Virus record (IMG/VR): IMGVR_UViG_3300042518_001188
Coordinates: 1-29,753 of that record
DNA from: a virus
Strand: one strand, 5' to 3'
DNA: 29,753 nucleotides
The position numbers and the translations under genes are program-made. Each line of letters begins with the position of its first letter. Positions within the stretch are counted from its first letter, which is position 1. Below are positions 4,504-28,844 of this stretch, one piece after another. The notes beneath the pieces are model-generated. The model searched no databases and had not been told where the DNA came from. It saw only the letters and a program-made list of their open reading frames with translations.

Positions 4504-6258
4504 ATGGAGAACACACAGCCCTCGTTGGCGCTGGTGGCGATTGCGGGCAACTGCGAGAGCTACGTCCGGCGGTTTATCGAATCCTTCCAGCGGCTCACGC
4601 CGCACATCTACATCGTCCGCGCCTGCGGCAGCCGAGATCCAGACAAGACCCTGGACATCGCCCGCGAAATGGGGTGCAAGGTCGGCGAATACAAGAACGC
4701 CGAGGCGCACCAATTCTGGGACCATGTGGACAACTTCGGCGCCGCCCGGCAAATGGCCGCCGACATGGCCGAGGCCGACGGCCACGAGTGGCTCATGTGG
4801 GCCGACACCGATGACATCCTCGAGCCCGAGAGCGCTGACATCATCCGCGAGCATCTACGCATTACCGCCCCAGAAACTACGCTGGCGCTCGTTCCTTATC
4901 GTCTGACCAACAACGGCCTTAATCTCCTGCGGGAGCGCATCTGGCGGCGCGGCACGGCCGTCTGGGCGGACCCTGTGCATGAACACCTCGAGCCGGTGGA
5001 CAAATCGGGCGACGGCCACGTCCGCTGGGAGGACTGCCGCATCGTCCACGCGCCCGACTCGCACAAAGACGAGGCCGACGGCAAGCAGGGCAACCAGCGC
5101 AACTGGCGCATCATCTCATCCATTCCCGACTTCGACAAAAACCCGCGTTGGCTTTTCTACGCGAGCCTCGAGCATTTCGGGTTCAAGGATGACGAGAACG
5201 GCATGGCCTACGCGGTCGAGGCTCTCAAAACGCCAGGGCTGGACGATAACGAGCGTTACGAGCTTTACCTTCAACTCGCCATGCGGACGCACGGCTTCGC
5301 GCCGAAAAAGTCGCTCCTGCATGAAGCCTACAAAGTGAGCCCGTGGCGCCGCGAAGCCTTGGCCCAACTGGCTGCCGTGTCGCTCGACAACAACGAGCCG
5401 CAAGATGCCTTGGCCTATGCCCGCGCTTTCATGGCGATCCCGGTGCCCGACGTGGTGCCGTGGACGCACCGCCCGGTGGTCTATGGTTTCGGCGGGGTGG
5501 GGCTGTATGCCTGCTGCCTGCGCGCCAACGGCGATACCGAGAAGGCCGACAAGTTCGAGCTTGAGTGGTTCAAGAAGTGCGGCGGCAAGATTAGCGTGTG
5601 CCACCCGACGCGCGGCCGCCCGTTGCAGGCCGCCGAGACGCGCAAGAAGTGGCTCGAGGCCGCCAAAGATCCGCAGGCCATTGAATACATCTTTGGGTTT
5701 TCGGCCGACGATACCGAAACGGCAGACATCTTGGGTCGATTCCGCCATGCGCAGTCTGCCGCCGGCAACCTGGACGCCGTGGGCGGAACGCTCGTCCAAA
5801 ATTACAATGCCGCCGTGCGCGCAAGTAGCGGCAAAATCATCCTGACAATCCAAGACGATCTGGAACCCTGCCTTTTCTGGGACGAACTCATTTGGAAGGC
5901 GCTTGCAAATCACCTCAACAGGCCGGCCGTTCTCCGGGTAGGCGACGGCTACCGAAACGACGATTTGCTGATTACGTTCTGCGTCACACGCCCGACCCTG
6001 CGCGCCATGAATCACAACGGGGGCATTGTTAGCGATGAATATCGGGGCGTGTTTTGCGACAACGAGTTCACGCACCGGGCCAAAAAGAACGGATGGATCG
6101 TGCCAAGCGACATTGTCCTGCGGCACGAGCATCCATTTTTCAATCCGGCCGTCCCAACCGACGACATCTACGCCATAGAAAATAGCTCAGAGGGCTACAA
6201 GTTCGGCCTTGAAGTATTCCGCCGCCGCAACCCCGACGCCTTTGACTCGCAGGGTTAG
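4504..6258 (+). CDS. Two-domain glycosyltransferase in the head module
   Basis: A 584-residue protein with two GT-A-like parts. Residues 1-about 215 are a family 2 glycosyltransferase: LALVAIAGNCESYVRRFIES at the nucleotide-sugar-binding strand, ADTDD (residues 100-104) as the metal-binding DxD motif, and IWRRGTAVWADPVHEHL as the acceptor-side motif common in GT2-TPR proteins. Residues about 220-350 are helical and TPR-like. A second GT-like domain starts near 360 (KISVCHPTRGRP) and has an acidic motif IQDDLEP near 448. Host cell-wall synthesis is unlikely, given its place between capsid and connector genes. Glycosylation of the virion or modification of the host surface are the reasonable options. 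The start is ATG 4504; the upstream ATG at 4491 is out of frame. Confidence 0.8.
   Translation: MENTQPSLALVAIAGNCESYVRRFIESFQRLTPHIYIVRACGSRDPDKTLDIAREMGCKVGEYKNAEAHQFWDHVDNFGAARQMAADMAEADGHEWLMWADTDDILEPESADIIREHLRITAPETTLALVPYRLTNNGLNLLRERIWRRGTAVWADPVHEHLEPVDKSGDGHVRWEDCRIVHAPDSHKDEADGKQGNQRNWRIISSIPDFDKNPRWLFYASLEHFGFKDDENGMAYAVEALKTPGLDDNERYELYLQLAMRTHGFAPKKSLLHEAYKVSPWRREALAQLAAVSLDNNEPQDALAYARAFMAIPVPDVVPWTHRPVVYGFGGVGLYACCLRANGDTEKADKFELEWFKKCGGKISVCHPTRGRPLQAAETRKKWLEAAKDPQAIEYIFGFSADDTETADILGRFRHAQSAAGNLDAVGGTLVQNYNAAVRASSGKIILTIQDDLEPCLFWDELIWKALANHLNRPAVLRVGDGYRNDDLLITFCVTRPTLRAMNHNGGIVSDEYRGVFCDNEFTHRAKKNGWIVPSDIVLRHEHPFFNPAVPTDDIYAIENSSEGYKFGLEVFRRRNPDAFDSQG
6242..6247 (+). promoter_or_regulatory. 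TTGACT variant of the start-associated motif
   Basis: One mismatch from TTGACA, inside the last codons of the glycosyltransferase. It is followed after exactly 14 nt by the ATG at 6262, again with GGGC immediately before ATG. The segment GGGTTAGGG could also act as a weak ribosome-binding site. Confidence 0.35.
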
Positions 6259-17986: not shown

Positions 17987-17989
17987 GCT

Positions 17990-17995
17990 TTGACA
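17990..17995 (+). promoter_or_regulatory. TTGACA start-associated motif, copy 7
   Basis: TTGACA stands 3 nt after the previous stop codon (TAG) and 13 nt before the ATG at 18009, with AGGGGC directly before the ATG. It is the only copy on the plus strand outside a coding region besides copy 4. Confidence 0.5.
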
Positions 17996-18008
17996 CCCCG
18001 CAAGGGGC

Positions 18009-19175: not shown

Positions 19176-19206
19176 AAAGGAGGGGGGCGATTTGTCCCCG
19201 CCCTTA
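19176..19206 (-). terminator. Second, weaker hairpin with T-run for the integrase operon
   Basis: Read on the minus strand, GGGCG and CGCCC pair across a 9-nt loop, followed by CCCTCC and then a run of six T. It lies behind the first terminator at 19229-19250 and could act as a back-up for minus-strand transcription arriving from the integrase operon. Confidence 0.4.
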
Positions 19207-19228
19207 ACCCGTGGATTTCGACGGGATT

Positions 19229-19250
19229 AAAACCCATCGGATTCGATGGG
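19229..19250 (-). terminator. Terminator of the integrase operon
   Basis: On the minus strand, immediately after the stop codon of the last operon gene, CCCATCG (19250-19244) and CGATGGG (19239-19233) form a 7-bp stem with an AATC loop, followed by TTTTAAT. A related palindrome CCCGT/ACGGG (19225-19208) follows with similar flanks, so the two look like an imperfect tandem copy. Confidence 0.7.
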
Positions 19251-19251
19251 A

Positions 19252-19404
19252 TTAGCGCCACCCCAAGGCAATCGCCATAAACCCCGCATTGGCGCAGGCA
19301 TAGAACAGGAAGCACGTTCCGAGGGCTGGCTGGCCTTGGCTCCAGAATCCGTAGGCTGTCCAAAGGTAGCAGACGGTGGTGATGACGAGCGGCCAGAAGG
19401 TCAC
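19252..19404 (-). CDS. Small membrane protein at the end of the integrase operon
   Basis: A 50-residue protein from GTG 19404 to TAA 19252, hydrophobic throughout with two probable membrane segments: MTFWPLVITTVCYLWTAYGF, then ALGTCFLFYACANAG and FMAIALGW. It is supported by a 4-nt overlap (GTGA) with the preceding metallopeptidase gene. Its stop codon abuts the operon terminator. It is Cys- and Trp-rich. The function is unknown; it may work with the metallopeptidase or be an exclusion-type membrane protein, which is speculation. Confidence 0.6.
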   Translation of the reverse strand: MTFWPLVITTVCYLWTAYGFWSQGQPALGTCFLFYACANAGFMAIALGWR

Positions 19405-19745
19405 GATGCTTTATGCCTCCCGATGCTGATTTTGCCGTCATTGCATCGAGTCGCCGCCCACCGAACCACCGCGCAAACCAGCCGCTCCAAGTCCCGAACG
19501 TGCGTTTCGTCAGTCGGAGGGATGCAAGCGTGCGTTAATTCGTGCGTAACAATGCCAAGCAAGTCGCCTTTCACCGCTGCGGGATTCAGCCACACGGTGC
19601 GCTTCTTGTAGTGGCACAGGCCGTCGAGCTTTTCTTTGTCGGGTGGACGCTCTACCCGGACACGCCACCACTGGCCGTCCAACTTAAACCGCATTGTCGG
19701 GGCGGGTTTCTTGCGCCGACGTTGGCCTGTGGCGGGCTTTTTCAT
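19401..19745 (-). CDS. Small HExxH metallopeptidase-like protein (SprT/ImmA-like)
   Basis: A 114-residue protein with a zincin signature HELTH (residues 68-72), which binds zinc through His68 and His72 with Glu69 as catalytic base. A third ligand may come from DETHVRDLE just downstream. Before it, RTVWLNPAAVKGDLLGIVT is the strand-helix usually leading into this motif in small phage SprT-like proteins. The N-terminus is Lys/Arg-rich (MKKPATGQRRRKKPAP). The start ATG 19745 overlaps the upstream HTH gene stop by 4 nt; the longer open frame upstream is a shadow of the phosphoesterase. The substrate is unknown. It could act on a repressor or host regulator, or be structural without activity. Confidence 0.65.
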   Translation of the reverse strand: MKKPATGQRRRKKPAPTMRFKLDGQWWRVRVERPPDKEKLDGLCHYKKRTVWLNPAAVKGDLLGIVTHELTHACIPPTDETHVRDLERLVCAVVRWAATRCNDGKISIGRHKAS

Positions 19746-19996
19746 TTCAGTCGGTAATGCGGCGTCAGGCGCACAAAGCTGCCAACGCTCGCGCGGAATT
19801 TTTGCATCTCGCAGCGGCCATCTTCTACCGCAGCGCCCAGCAGGCGGGCCATTGTTGGGCGTGTCTTGCCGAGCTTGTCGGCAAGTTGTTTGGTGGTGAA
19901 CCAGCCGGGTGGAACTACGTCCGTCACGGCGGGAGCCGCGAGGGCCGCACACCACTGGGCAAGGTCGGGGTCGGGGCTGGCAGCGCGCTTGCTCAT
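19742..19996 (-). CDS. Small winged-helix DNA-binding protein
   Basis: An 84-residue protein with a helix-turn-helix at about residues 32-62 (WFTTKQLADKLGKTRPTMAR, then LLGAAVEDGRCEMQKFR as the wing). The pattern is that of MarR/ArsR-like winged helices. The start ATG 19996 overlaps the phosphoesterase stop by 4 nt, and the stop overlaps the metallopeptidase start by 4 nt. It could regulate the operon or lysogeny. Its C-terminus (RLTPHYRLK) resembles that of the upstream gene product (TLSPHYRLPL), which is odd for unrelated proteins. Confidence 0.65.
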   Translation of the reverse strand: MSKRAASPDPDLAQWCAALAAPAVTDVVPPGWFTTKQLADKLGKTRPTMARLLGAAVEDGRCEMQKFRASVGSFVRLTPHYRLK

Positions 19997-20733
19997 AGCG
20001 GGAGCCTGTAATGGGGGGAAAGAGTGACGAGGTTGACCGTGCAGGCGTTGTCGGAGTATTCGCCGTAGGCGAAGCCATGCCGCCACGCCAAGGTCTGCCG
20101 CCGGCCTGCGGCATACTCCATATCGAGGCGAGCCAGGCACCCGATGTTGTAGCCGATGGCGTCGGCATGGGTGCGGGCGGGCTCCATCGCCACCCGGTGC
20201 GTGTGGCCGAACACACAATGCGCGCCGATAGTTTCCGCCGTGTCGCGGGCCGCGCTGACGTTGAAGAGAGCGCCGTGCAGGAAGGCCGTGCCGCCCAGAT
20301 ACCGCACCGAGTCGCGGGCCATACCGCGATAAGGGATGATCTCGGTTTTGTATTTGGCGAGGTTGTCGTGGATCTTCGCCATGACCGCGCCCGCCGCGTA
20401 GGCCACGACCTGATTGGCGCTATGGGTCAGGGCAACGGCGCGGGCCTCGTGGTTGCCGTGGAAATACATGGTGGGCCGCATCTCGTGCAGGAACGAAAGC
20501 CCGGCGAGCAGATCGTCCATAAGGGACTCGGCGCGGTCGGGGTCATCGGGATCACGGCGAGCGCCAGCGCGGAGGCAGGCGAGGTCAATGGCATCGCCAA
20601 GGTGGATACGTTGGTGCGGGTTGTAGCGGTCGAGGAAAGTCAGGAACGCTTCGCGGGCCTTCGGGTCGATGTCGGAACCGTGGGAGCAGGTCGCCGCCGC
20701 CCACTTTTTCCATTTACGGGTGATCGTCGCCAC
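19993..20733 (-). CDS. Calcineurin-like metallophosphoesterase
   Basis: A 246-residue enzyme with the motifs of the calcineurin-like phosphoesterase fold in order: an N-terminal motif that reads SHGSD instead of the usual DxH, HLGDAID (residues 44-50), FHGNHEAR (91-98), FLHG (151-154) and FGHTHR (175-180). These residues would bind two metal ions and hydrolyse a phosphoester. The substrate could be nucleic acid, a nucleotide or a phosphoprotein and is not known. The start is GTG 20733, which carries the TTGACA motif upstream, on the minus strand. It is the second gene of the integrase operon. Confidence 0.75.
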   Translation of the reverse strand: MATITRKWKKWAAATCSHGSDIDPKAREAFLTFLDRYNPHQRIHLGDAIDLACLRAGARRDPDDPDRAESLMDDLLAGLSFLHEMRPTMYFHGNHEARAVALTHSANQVVAYAAGAVMAKIHDNLAKYKTEIIPYRGMARDSVRYLGGTAFLHGALFNVSAARDTAETIGAHCVFGHTHRVAMEPARTHADAIGYNIGCLARLDMEYAAGRRQTLAWRHGFAYGEYSDNACTVNLVTLSPHYRLPL

Positions 20734-20749
20734 GCAAGGGCGAACGGGG

Positions 20750-20755
20750 TGTCAA
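20750..20755 (-). promoter_or_regulatory. TTGACA start-associated motif, copy 8 (minus strand)
   Basis: Read on the minus strand, TTGACA is followed after 16 nt by the GTG start of the phosphoesterase at 20733. It lies in the 35-nt gap after the integrase stop. This is the only copy outside the late operon and on the opposite strand. Confidence 0.5.
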
Positions 20756-20768
20756 AACCCTATGACAG

Positions 20769-21788
20769 CTACAAAGCCCACCAAGCCCGCCAATCAGCCA
20801 ATGCGGCAGGAACGGCATAGACCTTTTGCACCATTCTGGAATCGGTGTGGCCCATTTGGTAGGCCGTGAGCCCCGCATTTTTGGCGCGGCCCAAGTGATA
20901 GGTAGCAAAGCTATGCCGCAGGCAGTTGTCGGGCCATTCGGCCAGCACGGGCGCACAGGCGCGGCGGCGGTGCGTGTGCAGGGTTTCGGACGCCACGGGA
21001 ATGATCTTGCCCTTTTGCTTGGCAAGCCACGCCCTGCGTCGTCGTAGCGGCTCGGTGAAATCCACAATGCGCTGGTCATAGCCCCCAGAGTCTTTCATCA
21101 CGCCGGGCGGGACGTGGATCTGGCCCGTTTTAGTATTTACGTTTGCCCAATCCATCCGATCAACCTCCTCGGTTCGCAGCCCGGCAAAGCCGCCAAGGAG
21201 CAACAGGGCGCGCACATGGTCTGGCAGATCCAAGGCCAGCAGCGCCTTCATTTGGGCGGGAGTTAGGATGTCGCGTCGCGGCTTGGTCTTGGGGGCGGGA
21301 ACCGCCGTCATCGGATCGTGGGGGATTAAGCGGTTGGCCGCGAGGTAGCCAAAAAACATTTTTGCGTAGCGGTAATACATGGCCTGAGTGTTGCCATTGG
21401 CCGACCGGGACTTGACCCATTTGCGAATAGCGATTGGCTCGATGTGCGTAACCGCTCCGTGGAAGGCGCCGCCAAAGGCGCGCTCAAAGATGCCGAGCTT
21501 TTCGGCGTGGCTGTCACTTTGCGGGTCGGCCTCGGCCATATACATCCGAAGCGCGGCCCTGACGGTGAAACCATCTGGATGCTGTAAAACTTGGACGCCC
21601 CTTTCGGTGACGCTGGCCGTCAGCTTGGCCCCCTCGCTCCACGCCAATTCCTCCGAGGCAAAAAACTTTCTGACCCTCTTGCCGTGAGCCCAAAAATCAC
21701 AAAGCCACGGGCTGTCGGGGTTCCAATCCACCCGGCGCACACTGAAGCGAACGGGGTTAATGTTGCGTCTAACTGCCATAACTGCCAC
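20769..21788 (-). CDS. int: Tyrosine recombinase (phage integrase)
   Basis: A 339-residue site-specific recombinase that would integrate the phage at attP. The catalytic domain carries GGFAGLRTEEVDRMDW (Arg205, Glu208), a likely catalytic Lys near MKDSGG (232), NCLRHSFATYH (Arg291), MGHTDSR (His314) and the nucleophile Tyr324 in QKVYAVP. The first residue of the HxxR box is Asn288 rather than His. The core-binding domain is about residues 75-160. GTG 21788 and ATG 21779 are both possible starts; the repeated GGCAGTT sites overlap this start. The gene lies about 105 bp from the tRNA-derived core and reads away from it. Confidence 0.93.
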   Translation of the reverse strand: MAVMAVRRNINPVRFSVRRVDWNPDSPWLCDFWAHGKRVRKFFASEELAWSEGAKLTASVTERGVQVLQHPDGFTVRAALRMYMAEADPQSDSHAEKLGIFERAFGGAFHGAVTHIEPIAIRKWVKSRSANGNTQAMYYRYAKMFFGYLAANRLIPHDPMTAVPAPKTKPRRDILTPAQMKALLALDLPDHVRALLLLGGFAGLRTEEVDRMDWANVNTKTGQIHVPPGVMKDSGGYDQRIVDFTEPLRRRRAWLAKQKGKIIPVASETLHTHRRRACAPVLAEWPDNCLRHSFATYHLGRAKNAGLTAYQMGHTDSRMVQKVYAVPAALADWRAWWAL

Positions 21789-21797
21789 GAAACTGCC
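21771..21797. repeat. Triple GGCAGTT repeat, probable integrase arm-type sites (P arm)
   Basis: Three copies of AACTGCC (minus strand GGCAGTT) start at 21771, 21780 and 21791, over the start of the integrase gene. Related sites occur on the other side of the tRNA-derived core at 21992-22049. Repeated short sites on both sides of a core are what arm-binding sites of lambda-type integrases look like. Their location could also allow autoregulation of int. Confidence 0.55.
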
Positions 21798-21821
21798 CTA
21801 TCTTTGCAACTTTGGCAAATG

Positions 21822-21881
21822 AAAAGCCGCAACAAGCAAAGACGCCTGAGCGGCGTAAGTGTCTGAACCCGTGCGGCTTTT
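21822..21881. repeat. Inverted repeat between integrase and the att core
   Basis: AAAAGCCGCA (21822-21831) and TGCGGCTTTT (21872-21881) form a 10-bp stem. An inner hairpin ACGCC/GGCGT (21842-21846 and 21852-21856) closes on TGAGC. Each outer arm ends in an A or T run, so it could serve as a terminator in either direction or a cruciform. It may insulate the integrase from host tRNA transcription in the lysogen. Confidence 0.4.
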
Positions 21882-21892
21882 ACAGAGCAAAA

Positions 21893-21950
21893 TGGCGGAA
21901 GGGGTGGGATTCGAACCCACGGTTGGTTTAACCCAACGCTCGATTTCGAG
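21893..21950 (-). other. attP: attP core: 3' half of a tRNA-Ser(CGA)
   Basis: On the minus strand, 21950 to 21893 reads as the 3' half of a class II tRNA: anticodon loop CTCGAAA (anticodon CGA), stem half TCGAG, a long variable arm (GTTGG/CCAAC), T-arm GTGGG-TTCGAAT-CCCAC, acceptor half CCCTTCC, discriminator G and CCA. The 5' half is absent: no GGAAGGG or matching anticodon stem lies upstream on that strand. Phages that integrate into tRNA genes carry exactly such a 3' fragment, so that integration restores the tRNA. The adjacent integrase supports this reading. Confidence 0.85.
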
Positions 21951-22092: not shown

Positions 22093-22242
22093 ATGAAGAG
22101 AACCACCATCACCGTGGATCAGTCTCTCTACGCGTGGGCGATGGCCGAAGCCAAGCGCAGGGGAATTAATGACTTCAGCACGTTCGTCCGCACGCTGATT
22201 GCCGCCGAAAAAAGAAACAAGAGCCATGAAAAAGACCGTTGA
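22093..22242 (+). CDS. Ribbon-helix-helix protein 1
   Basis: A 49-residue protein of the ribbon-helix-helix type: an N-terminal strand MKRTTITVDQ that would insert into the DNA major groove as a dimer, then helix SLYAWAMAEAKRRG, a turn IND and helix FSTFVRTLIAAEKR. Such proteins are repressors or antitoxins. It is the first early gene right of attP and overlaps the next gene by 17 nt. The start ATG 22093 was chosen because upstream in-frame sequence runs through the tRNA-derived core. Confidence 0.65.
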   Translation: MKRTTITVDQSLYAWAMAEAKRRGINDFSTFVRTLIAAEKRNKSHEKDR

Positions 22243-22399
22243 AATCTCGCCGCAGGCCGTTGCTGAACTCGATGCCGCTCGCGGCGGCGTTTCTCGCAGC
22301 AAATATGTGGACGCGCTCTTAAAAAAGTATCAAGGTGTCACACTTCCTCACACGCAGGGTGCCGACTGCCCCAAACGTCGGAAAAAACCGAAACCCTAG
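22226..22399 (+). CDS. Ribbon-helix-helix protein 2
   Basis: A 57-residue protein with MKKTVEISPQAVAELDAARG as strand and first helix, then SRSKYVDALLKKYQG as second helix: the ribbon-helix-helix order. The C-terminal tail is basic (CPKRRKKPKP). It overlaps the preceding gene in another frame, so the two may be co-translated. An imperfect palindrome AAGGTGTCACACTT lies in its 3' part (22332-22345). Likely DNA-binding regulator; target unknown. Confidence 0.6.
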   Translation: MKKTVEISPQAVAELDAARGGVSRSKYVDALLKKYQGVTLPHTQGADCPKRRKKPKP

Positions 22400-22407
22400 G
22401 ACAATGA

Positions 22408-22644
22408 ATGTCCGACCCCTCAGGAGAAACTTGGCCGATGAAAGAAGAACTGGCTATCGCGTGCATACTCCACGTTGCTCAACAAGAGCAGCTTACACCG
22501 GAAAATGTGCTATGGGCACTTGTCCCCATACCAAACCGTCATATAGTGTCTGACACTTGCAGGCATGAAGAAGCAACAGAAACCGCGAGACAGAGCAGCC
22601 AACCGGATACGGAAGACCATCCCGTTTCCCGATGCGCTGGCTGA
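22408..22644 (+). CDS. Small hypothetical protein
   Basis: A 78-residue open frame that fills the gap between the second and third ribbon-helix-helix genes. The first part is helical (MKEELAIACILHVAQQEQLT, with an alternative start at 22441), and the last 26 residues overlap the next gene in another frame. No family is recognised. The overlap of 80 nt is larger than elsewhere in this region, so the true end, or the existence of the gene, is uncertain. Confidence 0.35.
   Translation: MSDPSGETWPMKEELAIACILHVAQQEQLTPENVLWALVPIPNRHIVSDTCRHEEATETARQSSQPDTEDHPVSRCAG
22545..22557. promoter_or_regulatory. Operator-like palindrome AGTGTC-T-GACACT
   Basis: A perfect 13-bp palindrome with a central T, 20 nt upstream of the third ribbon-helix-helix gene. 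Its centre GTCTGAC is shared with the two later palindromes at 22800 and 22971. It is a candidate binding site for one of the nearby regulators. Confidence 0.45.
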
Positions 22645-22783
22645 CGAGATTCAGGCCATCGCTGACGAGAAATACAAAGGCGACTTCACCCGCGCAGTGC
22701 TTGAAGAGATGGCGCGGCGATTCCCTACGGCGCGAGAGTTTTTGCGGACGAACACCACGTCCAAATTCTCGACCAAAAGATAA
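22565..22783 (+). CDS. Ribbon-helix-helix protein 3
   Basis: A 72-residue protein with a basic N-terminal extension (MKKQQKPRDRAANRI), then strand RKTIPFPDALA, helix DEIQAIADEKY and helix DFTRAVLEEMARRF. It resembles the fourth protein of the set (RKTIPFP versus RKTISFP, and a DF-led second helix), so the two are probably duplicates. It is preceded by the AGTGTCTGACACT palindrome and followed by a T-tract plus the AGCCGTC palindrome. Confidence 0.6.
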   Translation: MKKQQKPRDRAANRIRKTIPFPDALADEIQAIADEKYKGDFTRAVLEEMARRFPTAREFLRTNTTSKFSTKR

Positions 22784-22799
22784 TTTATTTTTTTCCTTG

Positions 22800-22814
22800 A
22801 GCCGTCTGACGGCT
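22800..22814. promoter_or_regulatory. Operator-like palindrome AGCCGTC-T-GACGGCT, copy 1
   Basis: A perfect 15-bp palindrome (7+1+7), 36 nt before the start of the fourth ribbon-helix-helix gene and just after a T-rich tract at 22784-22794. It is repeated with only the central base changed at 22971. As DNA it is a dimer-binding site candidate; as RNA it would be a short hairpin. Confidence 0.5.
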
Positions 22815-22835
22815 GGTGGTAGAAACACCACCCAG

Positions 22836-23009
22836 ATGCAAGGAGTGACCCGCAAAACCATCTCGTTTCCCTCGCAGCTTGCGAAGGAGATTGCGGCTTT
22901 GGCCGCAGACGAGCACCGCGATTTTAGCAAGCAAGTCGTTGCAATTTGTGAGGCTCTTTTTTTTGACCCAAGCCGTCAGACGGCTCGCAGCAAGAAGGAC
23001 AAAAAATGA
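22836..23009 (+). CDS. Ribbon-helix-helix protein 4
   Basis: A 57-residue protein: strand TRKTISFPSQLA, helix KEIAALAADEHR and helix DFSKQVVAICEALFF, with a basic tail. The start ATG 22836 gives this form; GTG 22845 is also possible. The gene is bracketed by the two AGCCGTC palindromes, the second lying inside its own 3' end. It overlaps the following excisionase-like gene by 4 nt (ATGA). Confidence 0.6.
   Translation: MQGVTRKTISFPSQLAKEIAALAADEHRDFSKQVVAICEALFFDPSRQTARSKKDKK
22971..22985. promoter_or_regulatory. Operator-like palindrome AGCCGTC-A-GACGGCT, copy 2
   Basis: Same 15-bp palindrome as at 22800 apart from the central base. It lies 35 nt before the start of the excisionase-like gene and follows a run of eight T (22957-22964). 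The matching distances to the next start codon (36 and 35 nt) argue for a regulatory function. Confidence 0.5.
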
Positions 23010-23209
23010 GCACGACCGATTTCATTATCCGCCCAGAGCAGGCCGCAGAGATGACCGGATATTCGGTCTACATGATCCGGCGTTTCGCGCATCGCGGCGA
23101 GTTTGCCGCGTGTATGCCGCGCGGACGCAAGGGCGGATGGGAAATCGTCAAACCATCTTTTGAGGCGTGGTGGAGCAGTAAGCGGGCCTCTTCATCGAAC
23201 AGAAAATAA
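23006..23209 (+). CDS. Excisionase-like helix-turn-helix protein
   Basis: A 67-residue protein of the Xis/AlpA/MerR-like type: IIRPEQAAEMTGYSVYMIRR is the helix-turn-helix and GEFAACMPRGRKGGWEIVKP the wing, followed by FEAWWSSK. Such proteins bend attachment DNA and direct excision, or act as transcription factors. It overlaps the upstream gene by 4 nt. Whether this phage uses it for excision is not shown, but no other Xis candidate is seen near the integrase. Confidence 0.6.
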   Translation: MSTTDFIIRPEQAAEMTGYSVYMIRRFAHRGEFAACMPRGRKGGWEIVKPSFEAWWSSKRASSSNRK

Positions 23210-27135: not shown

Positions 27136-27334
27136 GTGGACACCCGCCGACAAGGAACTCCCGGGCAACCCGCGCTGCGTGCTGGCGACGGATGGCGAGT
27201 GCGTTTTCATCGCTTGTTATTCCGAGAACGGAACGATGGATCTGTTGCAGGGCTGGAATGACGCGCACAGCGACACGGGCATCGACAGCGTTATCACGCA
27301 TTGGATGGAACTGCCGGAGGTGCCGATTGTCTAA
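27128..27334 (+). CDS. DUF551-like small protein
   Basis: A 68-residue protein with the pattern WTPADKELPGNPRCVLATDG at its start and SVITHWMELPEVPIV at its end. This matches the layout of DUF551 proteins that are common in phages: a Trp-x-Pro start, a VLA strand, and HWMxLPxxP near the C-terminus. The biochemical role of that family is not known. It overlaps the methyltransferase start by 8 nt. Confidence 0.65.
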   Translation: MSEWTPADKELPGNPRCVLATDGECVFIACYSENGTMDLLQGWNDAHSDTGIDSVITHWMELPEVPIV

Positions 27335-28844
27335 AGCAATTAAGATTGCTGACCTGTTCTGTGGCGCGGGCGGCACATCCACTGGAGCGTGCGAGGCCGT
27401 GGAGGCATTGGGCTATCGCCCGATGCTCACGGCCATCAACCATTGGCCCGTCGCCGTGGAGACGCACACGCGCAACCATCCCGAGGCGCGGCACTTTTGC
27501 GCGTCACTCGATGCGCTGAACCCGCGCGACCTGTTTGCCCCCGGTGAGCTTGATTTGCTGTGGGCTTCGCCGGAATGCACACATCACTCGGTTGCTCGAG
27601 GTGGCAAGCCGATCAATGAGCAAAGCCGCGCGACTGCGTGGTGTGTGATTCGCTGGGCCGATGCGCTTATGCCACCGACAATCCTTGTGGAGAATGTGCC
27701 CGAGTTTTTGGGCTGGGGAGGATTAACCGTGGAGGGTCGTCCAATGAAGTCCAAAAAAGGCGCAACGTTCGCCGCGTGGGTTGGCGCGCTGGAAAGTCTG
27801 GGCTACCGCGTCGAATGGAAGATCCTGTGCGCGGCCAACTACGGCGACCCCACCACACGCCGCCGGTTGTTTGTTCAAGCGGTGCGCGGCAGGCGCAAGA
27901 TTGTCTGGCCCGATCCGACGCACGCGGCGGCGGGCGAGGGTGATTTGTTAGGCGGGCGTAAGCCTTGGGTGGCAGCCAAGCAGATTATTGACTGGGACAT
28001 TCCGGGGGAATCTATCTACGAGCGCAAGCGCCCGTTAAAGCCTAAGACGATGGCGCGCATCATGGACGGGCTAGAACGCTTTGGCCTGCGACCGTTCATT
28101 CAGACAATGGAACACGGCGGATCAGTGCGAGACGCCGACCGACCATTGCCGACGATCACCACGGCCAAAGGCGGAGCCTTCGGGCTGACTGAGCCGTATC
28201 TAATCCACGTCGCTCATCACGGCAAACGTAAGGCGCGCAGCTTGGAACAGCCGCTTCCGACTGTTGCCGGCAAGGGCGGAACGATTGCACTGGCGCATCC
28301 GTATTTGATCGAAATGCGCGGCACGTCCGAGGCGCAATGCCGCGCGTCGGCCCGCAGCATTAGCGATCCGCTAGGCACCGTGACCGCTGGCGGCGTGCAT
28401 CACGGTCTTGTGGAGCCCTGTCTGCTCCCGCAGCAGTCCTGCGGCGCTCTGCGGCCCGTGAGCGAGCCCGCCCCGACTGTCAGCACTGCCGGAGCCATTG
28501 CGCTCATCGAGCCATTTCTGGTCGAATACTACGGCAACGGACGGGCGCAAAGCGTCAATGAGCCGCTTGGCACGGCAACCACCCGGGACCGTTTCGGGTT
28601 GGCGCGGCCCGAGGTCGTCGTTGACGGCAACCGATACCTGCTCGACATCCGCTTTCGGATGCTCCAGGCGCACGAGCTTGCCGCCGCCCAAGGGTTTCCG
28701 CGCGACTACCAATTCAGCGGCACGAAGACGCAAGCCATCAAGCAAATCGGCAACGCGGTGCCGCGACATCTCGCCCGGGCGCTTGTGCTGGCAGCGATGA
28801 GCCAGAGCAACCAGATCTCGGAGTTTTTAGGGGAGGCCGCATGA
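27327..28844 (+). CDS. DNA (cytosine-5-)-methyltransferase with repeated middle region
   Basis: A 505-residue C5 methyltransferase. Motif I ADLFCGAGGTSTG (residues 8-20) binds AdoMet. Motif IV reads WASPECTHHS, giving catalytic Cys84 but SPEC instead of the usual PPC. Motif VI is LVENVPEF (Glu122), motif VIII TTRRRLF (about 177-182), and motifs IX-X ELAAAQGFP to QIGNAVP near the C-terminus. Residues about 268-434, where target recognition lies, hold five related units of about 33-40 residues (PLPTIT...EPYLI). The best start is TTG 27327, overlapping the previous stop by 8 nt. It could protect phage DNA from host restriction. No partner nuclease is seen. Confidence 0.9.
   Translation: MSKAIKIADLFCGAGGTSTGACEAVEALGYRPMLTAINHWPVAVETHTRNHPEARHFCASLDALNPRDLFAPGELDLLWASPECTHHSVARGGKPINEQSRATAWCVIRWADALMPPTILVENVPEFLGWGGLTVEGRPMKSKKGATFAAWVGALESLGYRVEWKILCAANYGDPTTRRRLFVQAVRGRRKIVWPDPTHAAAGEGDLLGGRKPWVAAKQIIDWDIPGESIYERKRPLKPKTMARIMDGLERFGLRPFIQTMEHGGSVRDADRPLPTITTAKGGAFGLTEPYLIHVAHHGKRKARSLEQPLPTVAGKGGTIALAHPYLIEMRGTSEAQCRASARSISDPLGTVTAGGVHHGLVEPCLLPQQSCGALRPVSEPAPTVSTAGAIALIEPFLVEYYGNGRAQSVNEPLGTATTRDRFGLARPEVVVDGNRYLLDIRFRMLQAHELAAAQGFPRDYQFSGTKTQAIKQIGNAVPRHLARALVLAAMSQSNQISEFLGEAA

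Follow-up and report, generated by a model that had tools for sequence, protein, structure and literature searches.

What do the four short genes behind the integrase gene of this phage do, and do they belong together? The stretch of DNA analysed here (the window) comprises 29,753 nucleotides, positions 1 to 29,753 of the IMG/VR virus record IMGVR_UViG_3300042518_001188. Our answer comes in two parts of different standing: the anatomy of the gene cassette is firm, and its function is inferred from the company that the genes keep, the residues that they conserve, and the ways in which they are exchanged.

Anatomy of the cassette

The four genes lie in series on the minus strand. The first (20,733-19,993, GTG start) encodes a calcineurin-like metallophosphoesterase (MPE) of 246 amino acids, here called type A, which was recognized from its open reading frame, a match to PHROG 221, and an AlphaFold (AF2) model searched with Foldseek. 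It is followed by a small winged helix protein (wHTH; 84 amino acids, 19,996-19,742), assigned from the reading frame, an alignment, and weak HTH HMM matches; by a minimal zinc peptidase with an HExxH motif (114 amino acids, 19,745-19,401), assigned from the reading frame, an alignment of 36 sequences, AF2, and Foldseek; and by a two-helix membrane protein (TM; 50 amino acids, GTG start, 19,404-19,252), recognized from the reading frame and an alignment. Gene starts were assigned by rule. Successive genes overlap by exactly 4 nt (ATGA, ATGA, and GTGA for the MPE-wHTH, wHTH-HExxH, and HExxH-TM junctions, respectively). These reading frames and junctions bear out an earlier, sequence-only reading of the window, which had described four genes overlapping in series and co-oriented with the integrase gene; its functional labels were also right at the level of the fold, for the MPE and the HExxH peptidase by the models and for the HTH protein by the weak HMM matches. 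The tyrosine integrase gene itself (339 amino acids, 21,788-20,769, minus strand; PF00589 with an E-value of 2e-6, PHROG 1 with 5e-30) is separated from the MPE gene by about 35 nt, without overlap, and is a neighbor of the cassette rather than a constant member.

Among relatives, the 4-nt overlap recurs at 66 of 115 MPE-wHTH junctions, 75 of 97 wHTH-HExxH junctions, and 87 of 100 HExxH-TM junctions. The dN/dS values of the cassette reading frames, calculated for the closest relative pairs, range from 0.02 to 0.23, indicating purifying selection on all four, and pN/pS against the relatives is far below 1. Because of the purifying selection and the recurrent overlaps, we consider the four reading frames to be real genes and not chance open reading frames.

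The operon was also said to end at a terminator. Terminator-like hairpins are present at 19,185-19,250 (minus strand); directly 3' of the last stop codon, a stem at 19,250-19,233 is followed by TTTTAAT, and this region folds more stably than shuffled sequences (z = -2.1). However, a simple scan gave 8 sites of this kind where 5.0 +/- 2.3 were expected, which is not above chance, so that the hairpin, its T-rich stretch, and the folding stability are no more than suggestive of a terminator at the operon end.

Two further sequence features were observed at this locus. In the window group, the type A MPE ends in PHYxLPL (near 19,996-20,020) and the wHTH in PHYRLK (near 19,745-19,765); most relatives have this common ending as well, despite differing DNA, and in phages whose wHTH ends in -YRP the MPE ends in PWLLP. 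The sequence TTTGACACCCC is found just upstream of the holin gene (17,989-17,999, plus strand) and just upstream of the MPE gene (20,746-20,756, minus strand). It is common before the holin gene in many relatives; it was set aside as a signal of the cassette, since it precedes the MPE gene in the window and only a few other loci.

Integrase, attachment site, and host

The attP core (21,892-21,947, minus strand) corresponds to the 3' part of tRNA-Ser(CGA), as comparison with intact tRNA genes in Verrucomicrobiota genomes revealed. Where it was detected, attP is located on the 5' side of the integrase gene. The integrases of relatives are co-oriented with that of the window (79-100% identity), inverted (65-83%), or of a type with about 30% identity. 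As both orientation and identity vary, the cassette has no fixed tie to the integrase, and the linkage between the two proposed earlier is unsupported. Between close relatives, the integrase-attP block (window 20,769-21,947) is inverted relative to the cassette while retaining the same tRNA-Ser(CGA)-derived core (loci L012, L013, L014, L020, L065, L075, L084, L110, and L151). In these inverted relatives, attP lies between the integrase gene and the cassette; therefore, the cassette would be located at a prophage end, in agreement with the position beside attP that had been noted.

A tyrosine integrase is present in 13 of 18 cassette-bearing records checked, one of the 13 being a metagenome-assembled genome (MAG) with several of its own; no resolvase or serine recombinase was found in the 18. 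A role as an RDF of the Bxb1 type, which needs a large serine integrase, was rejected, because the integrase is of the PF00589 tyrosine type and no serine integrase was found. The wHTH was likewise rejected as an excisionase (Xis), since it is constant with the MPE and not with the integrase, and since a separate excisionase-like gene is located at 23,006; that none of the four is an integration gene had been stated correctly. This HTH_17 gene (23,006-23,209) follows a row of several small open reading frames beside attP (22,199-23,009, plus strand), which look ribbon-helix-helix-like by eye and have no Pfam match. Elsewhere in the window, a C-5 cytosine DNA methyltransferase of 504 amino acids (27,330-28,844, plus strand; PF00145, E-value 5e-33) is encoded near the right contig end, and a family 2 glycosyltransferase of 584 amino acids (4,504-6,258, plus strand) within the head gene cluster.

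An attB-like tRNA-Ser(CGA) sequence was found in 28 of 388 Verrucomicrobiota genomes. The genome scan gave only one match to a bacterial assembly, a phage-like contig in a Verrucomicrobia MAG. Judging from this contig and the tRNA matches, the host of the window phage most likely belongs to the Verrucomicrobiota.

The metallophosphoesterase

The MPE matches PHROG 221 with an E-value of 3.5e-15 and scores under the Pfam cut-offs. Its motifs are CxH (C16, H18), GD..D (46-50), GNHE (93-96), HG (153-154), and GHTH (176-179). The AF2 model has a pLDDT of 87.7, with low confidence in the C-terminal tail, which ends in PHYRLPL. Foldseek matched it to calcineurin-like phosphoesterases in general, including YfcE, SapH, LpxH, and SbcD/Mre11; a sequence search of the PDB gave no meaningful match, and none that was significant to any solved MPE. 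In an alignment of 33 MPE sequences the catalytic residues are invariant. Four of the superfamily motifs (D-x-H, G-D-x-x-D, G-N-H-E/D, H, and G-H-x-H) are kept in these sequences, the last as GHTH or AHLH, and motif I reads C-x-H. The aspartate of motif I is replaced by cysteine in 147 of 149 MPE sequences; the two exceptions gave no match where the motif should lie, and they seem to be truncated or misread.

Dbr1 is described as having this cysteine without exception, and the rest of the MPE superfamily as almost never having it (PMC4176325). The window MPE has the cysteine in motif I, in the alpha metal pocket, that is part of the definition of Dbr1 (PMC4176325); in contrast to Dbr1, it lacks the C-terminal domain and lariat recognition loop, being too short at 246 amino acids with the core filling the model, and Dbr1 is absent from its 50 best fold matches.

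The peptidase, the winged helix, and the membrane protein

Residues H68, E69, H72, and E80 of the HExxH peptidase are invariant in the alignment of 36 sequences, and Glu80 is likely the third zinc ligand. The AF2 model has a pLDDT of 90.7. Its best PDB matches in Foldseek are abylysin, selecase, jannalysin, and PprI, all weak (E-value about 0.1 or worse), and in BFVD it matches IrrE/SprT-like phage proteins with an E-value of about 3e-4. With about 110 amino acids, HExxH plus a downstream glutamate, and a similar predicted fold, the protein resembles both the minigluzincins (abylysin, jannalysin, and selecase), whose definition it fits, and the IrrE/PprI and SprT-like phage peptidases; in contrast to this structural likeness, the PDB match is weak (E 0.1) and the sequence HMM matches are below cut-off. 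The score against SprT-like PF10263 is 13.1 bits (cut-off 25.6), and a sequence search of the PDB gave no meaningful match. The MPE and the HExxH peptidase are likely two active enzymes.

For the wHTH and the TM protein, family assignment is limited to the weak HTH HMM matches of the former, to which a sequence search of the PDB added weak HTH matches only. The TM protein has the conserved pattern MTFWPLL..T..Y..T..GF...GN...F.GY..N.GF in the alignment.

Conservation and distribution of the cassette

Searches with the MPE and the HExxH peptidase gathered well over 100 viral loci. The IMG/VR relatives were found by peptide patterns, so that the following counts are no census and may include near-duplicates; moreover, every record comes from a metagenome and may be incomplete. 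Of 124 viral loci, 121 have the wHTH gene after the MPE gene. The order MPE-wHTH-HExxH-TM is present in 80 of the 124, MPE-wHTH-GNAT in 18, and, in the sequence available, MPE-wHTH only in 22. The gene set is thus conserved as a unit, as the sequence-only reading had supposed; nor are the same genes scattered as ordinary early genes, since they move as one cassette.

Relatives were also collected independently of the cassette, using the portal protein of the window as query, which gave 16 contigs with a length of 24 kb or more. The type A MPE and the HExxH peptidase are each present in 13 of the 16; two contigs (G408 and G419) have a type B MPE in the first slot, and in two more (G409 and G413, to which loci L084 and L087 belong) a GNAT takes the slot of the HExxH peptidase. 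One contig (G414) seems to stop inside the tail-fibre and early genes and hence to be without the region altogether. The cassette is present in 15 of 15 portal-selected contigs that contain the region; it therefore is core in the group of the window phage and not sporadic cargo.

A search of 50,697 annotated phage records gave no close relative of the MPE or the HExxH peptidase of the window, or of the HExxH peptidase of L015; likewise, plasmids gave none of the L052 MPE. The 388 Verrucomicrobiota genomes contained three MPE matches and a single HExxH match, which was borderline, partial, and had an internal stop; the cassette genes are confined to phages, being nearly absent from these bacterial genomes of the phylum. 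A literature search did not turn up a description of such a set of genes, and the cassette genes obtain superfamily matches at most in PADLOC, Pfam, NCBIfam, and PHROGs. None of these catalogues names the set, in keeping with its earlier description as a candidate undescribed system. Against the defence components of PADLOC 2.0, the cassette had one weak match at chance level (E-value 0.03). With no PADLOC match beyond this and no such gene set in the 388 genomes, the placement in a defence island is unsupported, and the anti-phage defence that had been offered as an example of function finds no backing.

Exchange of genes within the slots

The cassette can be described as four slots: an MPE (type A with CxH or type B with SDLH in motif I), the wHTH, a zinc peptidase or a GNAT acetyltransferase, and the TM protein. 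Types A and B are treated as separate families because a profile comparison revealed no significant similarity between them. The type B MPE precedes the same wHTH-HExxH-TM genes, including in close relatives of the window phage (L045/G408 and L258/G419) and in podoviruses (L164 and L179), where the cassette is located between the scaffold and capsid (MCP) genes. In L189, a type B MPE, the same wHTH, and a GNAT lie between TerL and portal, and in L191 the same three precede the scaffold gene. The GNAT alternates with the HExxH peptidase in both MPE backgrounds, and the third slot of L190 contains another, distinct minimal peptidase. The location of the cassette varies among the lysis/integrase junction, TerL-portal, before scaffold, and scaffold-MCP; in these other phages, head genes were named from gene order and sequence, not from database matches. 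Neighboring genes also differ in identity (L025 compared to the window: MPE 61%, HExxH 98%); therefore, the slots recombine. The podovirus ctMEh928 (MW202647) likewise has an SDLH-type (type B) MPE followed by a small HTH gene with the same ATGA overlap, but has no HExxH, GNAT, or TM gene thereafter. L042 contains an extra open reading frame encoding 84 amino acids (969-1223) between GNAT and TM, which we take to be a possible SaV/DUF3310-like protein.

These exchanges bear on the proposal that the cassette is a protease-controlled switch in the manner of ImmR/ImmA, in which the wHTH would act as a repressor and be cut by the HExxH peptidase. The frequent wHTH-HExxH overlap (75 of 97) and the resemblance of the peptidase to IrrE-like proteins are consistent with such a switch. 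However, the wHTH remains with the MPE where the peptidase is absent (22 loci) or replaced by a GNAT (18 loci), and the operon order and the location in head operons do not suit a repressor gene. Repressors of the ImmR kind are of the Xre type, and the wHTH, a small winged helix, is unlike them. We consider a regulatory switch very unlikely.

The sequence-only reading itself had proposed a lysogeny-expressed cargo for superinfection exclusion or defence; the TM protein and the peptidase would then be the effectors. The position of the cassette at the would-be prophage end in divergent relatives, the tyrosine integrase in 13 of the 18 records, and an operon of its own with a terminator-like end agree with this. 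In contrast, a cargo of this kind would not be expected to be core in the window group or to be embedded in the head-gene and packaging operons of other phages, and these two findings speak against expression in lysogeny only; in addition, no PADLOC match and no defence-island set in the 388 genomes was found. We consider a lysogeny cargo rather unlikely.

A possible function of the cassette

The cassette is conserved, mobile, and built from slots. We favor, with a probability of about 0.35, the interpretation that it serves temperate phages in host takeover or counter-defence. The wHTH would be the nucleic-acid-binding partner of the MPE, the two forming a nuclease or phosphodiesterase unit; the enzyme in the third slot would cleave or acetylate a host protein; and the slots jointly may condition the host cell in the phage's favor during infection, perhaps also during lysogeny. 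This reading draws on the conserved gene order with its overlaps and purifying selection, the nearly constant MPE-wHTH pairing, the presence in all portal-selected phages that contain the region, the exchange of enzymes in the first and third slots, the varying location, the confinement to phages, the invariant catalytic residues of both enzymes, and the distant homology to mycobacteriophage MPEs. The model leaves the TM protein without a part.

The closest precedents are the MPEs of cluster A mycobacteriophages (A10ZJ24 gp48, the Bxb1 RDF gp47, and D29 gp66; PHROG 221). A10ZJ24 gp48 is a tested counter-defence factor, which causes damage to the host DNA and shuts down defence genes (PMC12287305); excision and phage DNA replication depend on Bxb1 gp47 (PMC12287305; PMC4111918). 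Like the window MPE, they are phage calcineurin-like phosphoesterases, comparable in length and with GD, GN, and GHTH motifs. However, motif I is DxQ in these proteins and CxH in the window, and in tblastn the MPE of a relative matched them only weakly (24-26% identity), so the transfer of function is weak. Their genes also belong to the early replication region and, in the two regions read, are not part of a wHTH-peptidase/GNAT-TM cassette.

The same precedents bear on another reading, in which the MPE and wHTH are a pair resembling SbcD/Mre11 or an RDF that serves in replication, recombination, or prophage excision, and the other two genes are passengers. SbcD/Mre11 is among the fold neighbors of the MPE, the homologous Bxb1 gp47 acts in excision and is also required for DNA replication (PMC12287305; PMC4111918), and in L036, L037, and L040 the MPE-HTH pair is located a few kb from an exonuclease gene. 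The core status of the cassette in the window group points the same way, and presence in all phages of the group, which would also fit housekeeping in phage DNA metabolism, counts against host takeover. However, the MPE fold matches YfcE, SapH, and LpxH at least as well as SbcD; the integrase is a tyrosine type of three kinds and two orientations, and elsewhere the cassette is found far from it among head genes; the window has its separate excisionase-like HTH_17 gene (23,006-23,209); and the tight coupling to a peptidase or acetyltransferase is left unexplained. A role in DNA metabolism is doubtful, but it is a serious possibility.

Within the preferred host-takeover or counter-defence interpretation, a more specific version can be imagined, to which we give very little credence. 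The CxH MPE might share the chemistry of Dbr1 and cleave 2'-5' phosphodiester bonds, for example those of the 2'-5'-linked cyclic nucleotides in CBASS-type immunity. The exchangeable enzyme, peptidase or acetyltransferase, would disarm the protein side of the same defence, making the cassette a modular counter-defence system. The change from aspartate to cysteine provides a specific biochemical prediction.

That non-orthologous enzymes take each other's place in the same slots in unrelated phages strongly suggests selection for a common task. With four short genes, two of them with clear catalytic residues, in phages of the poorly studied Verrucomicrobiota, the cassette is a compact and testable target; if it acts in counter-defence, its variable slots would indicate which host systems these phages fight.
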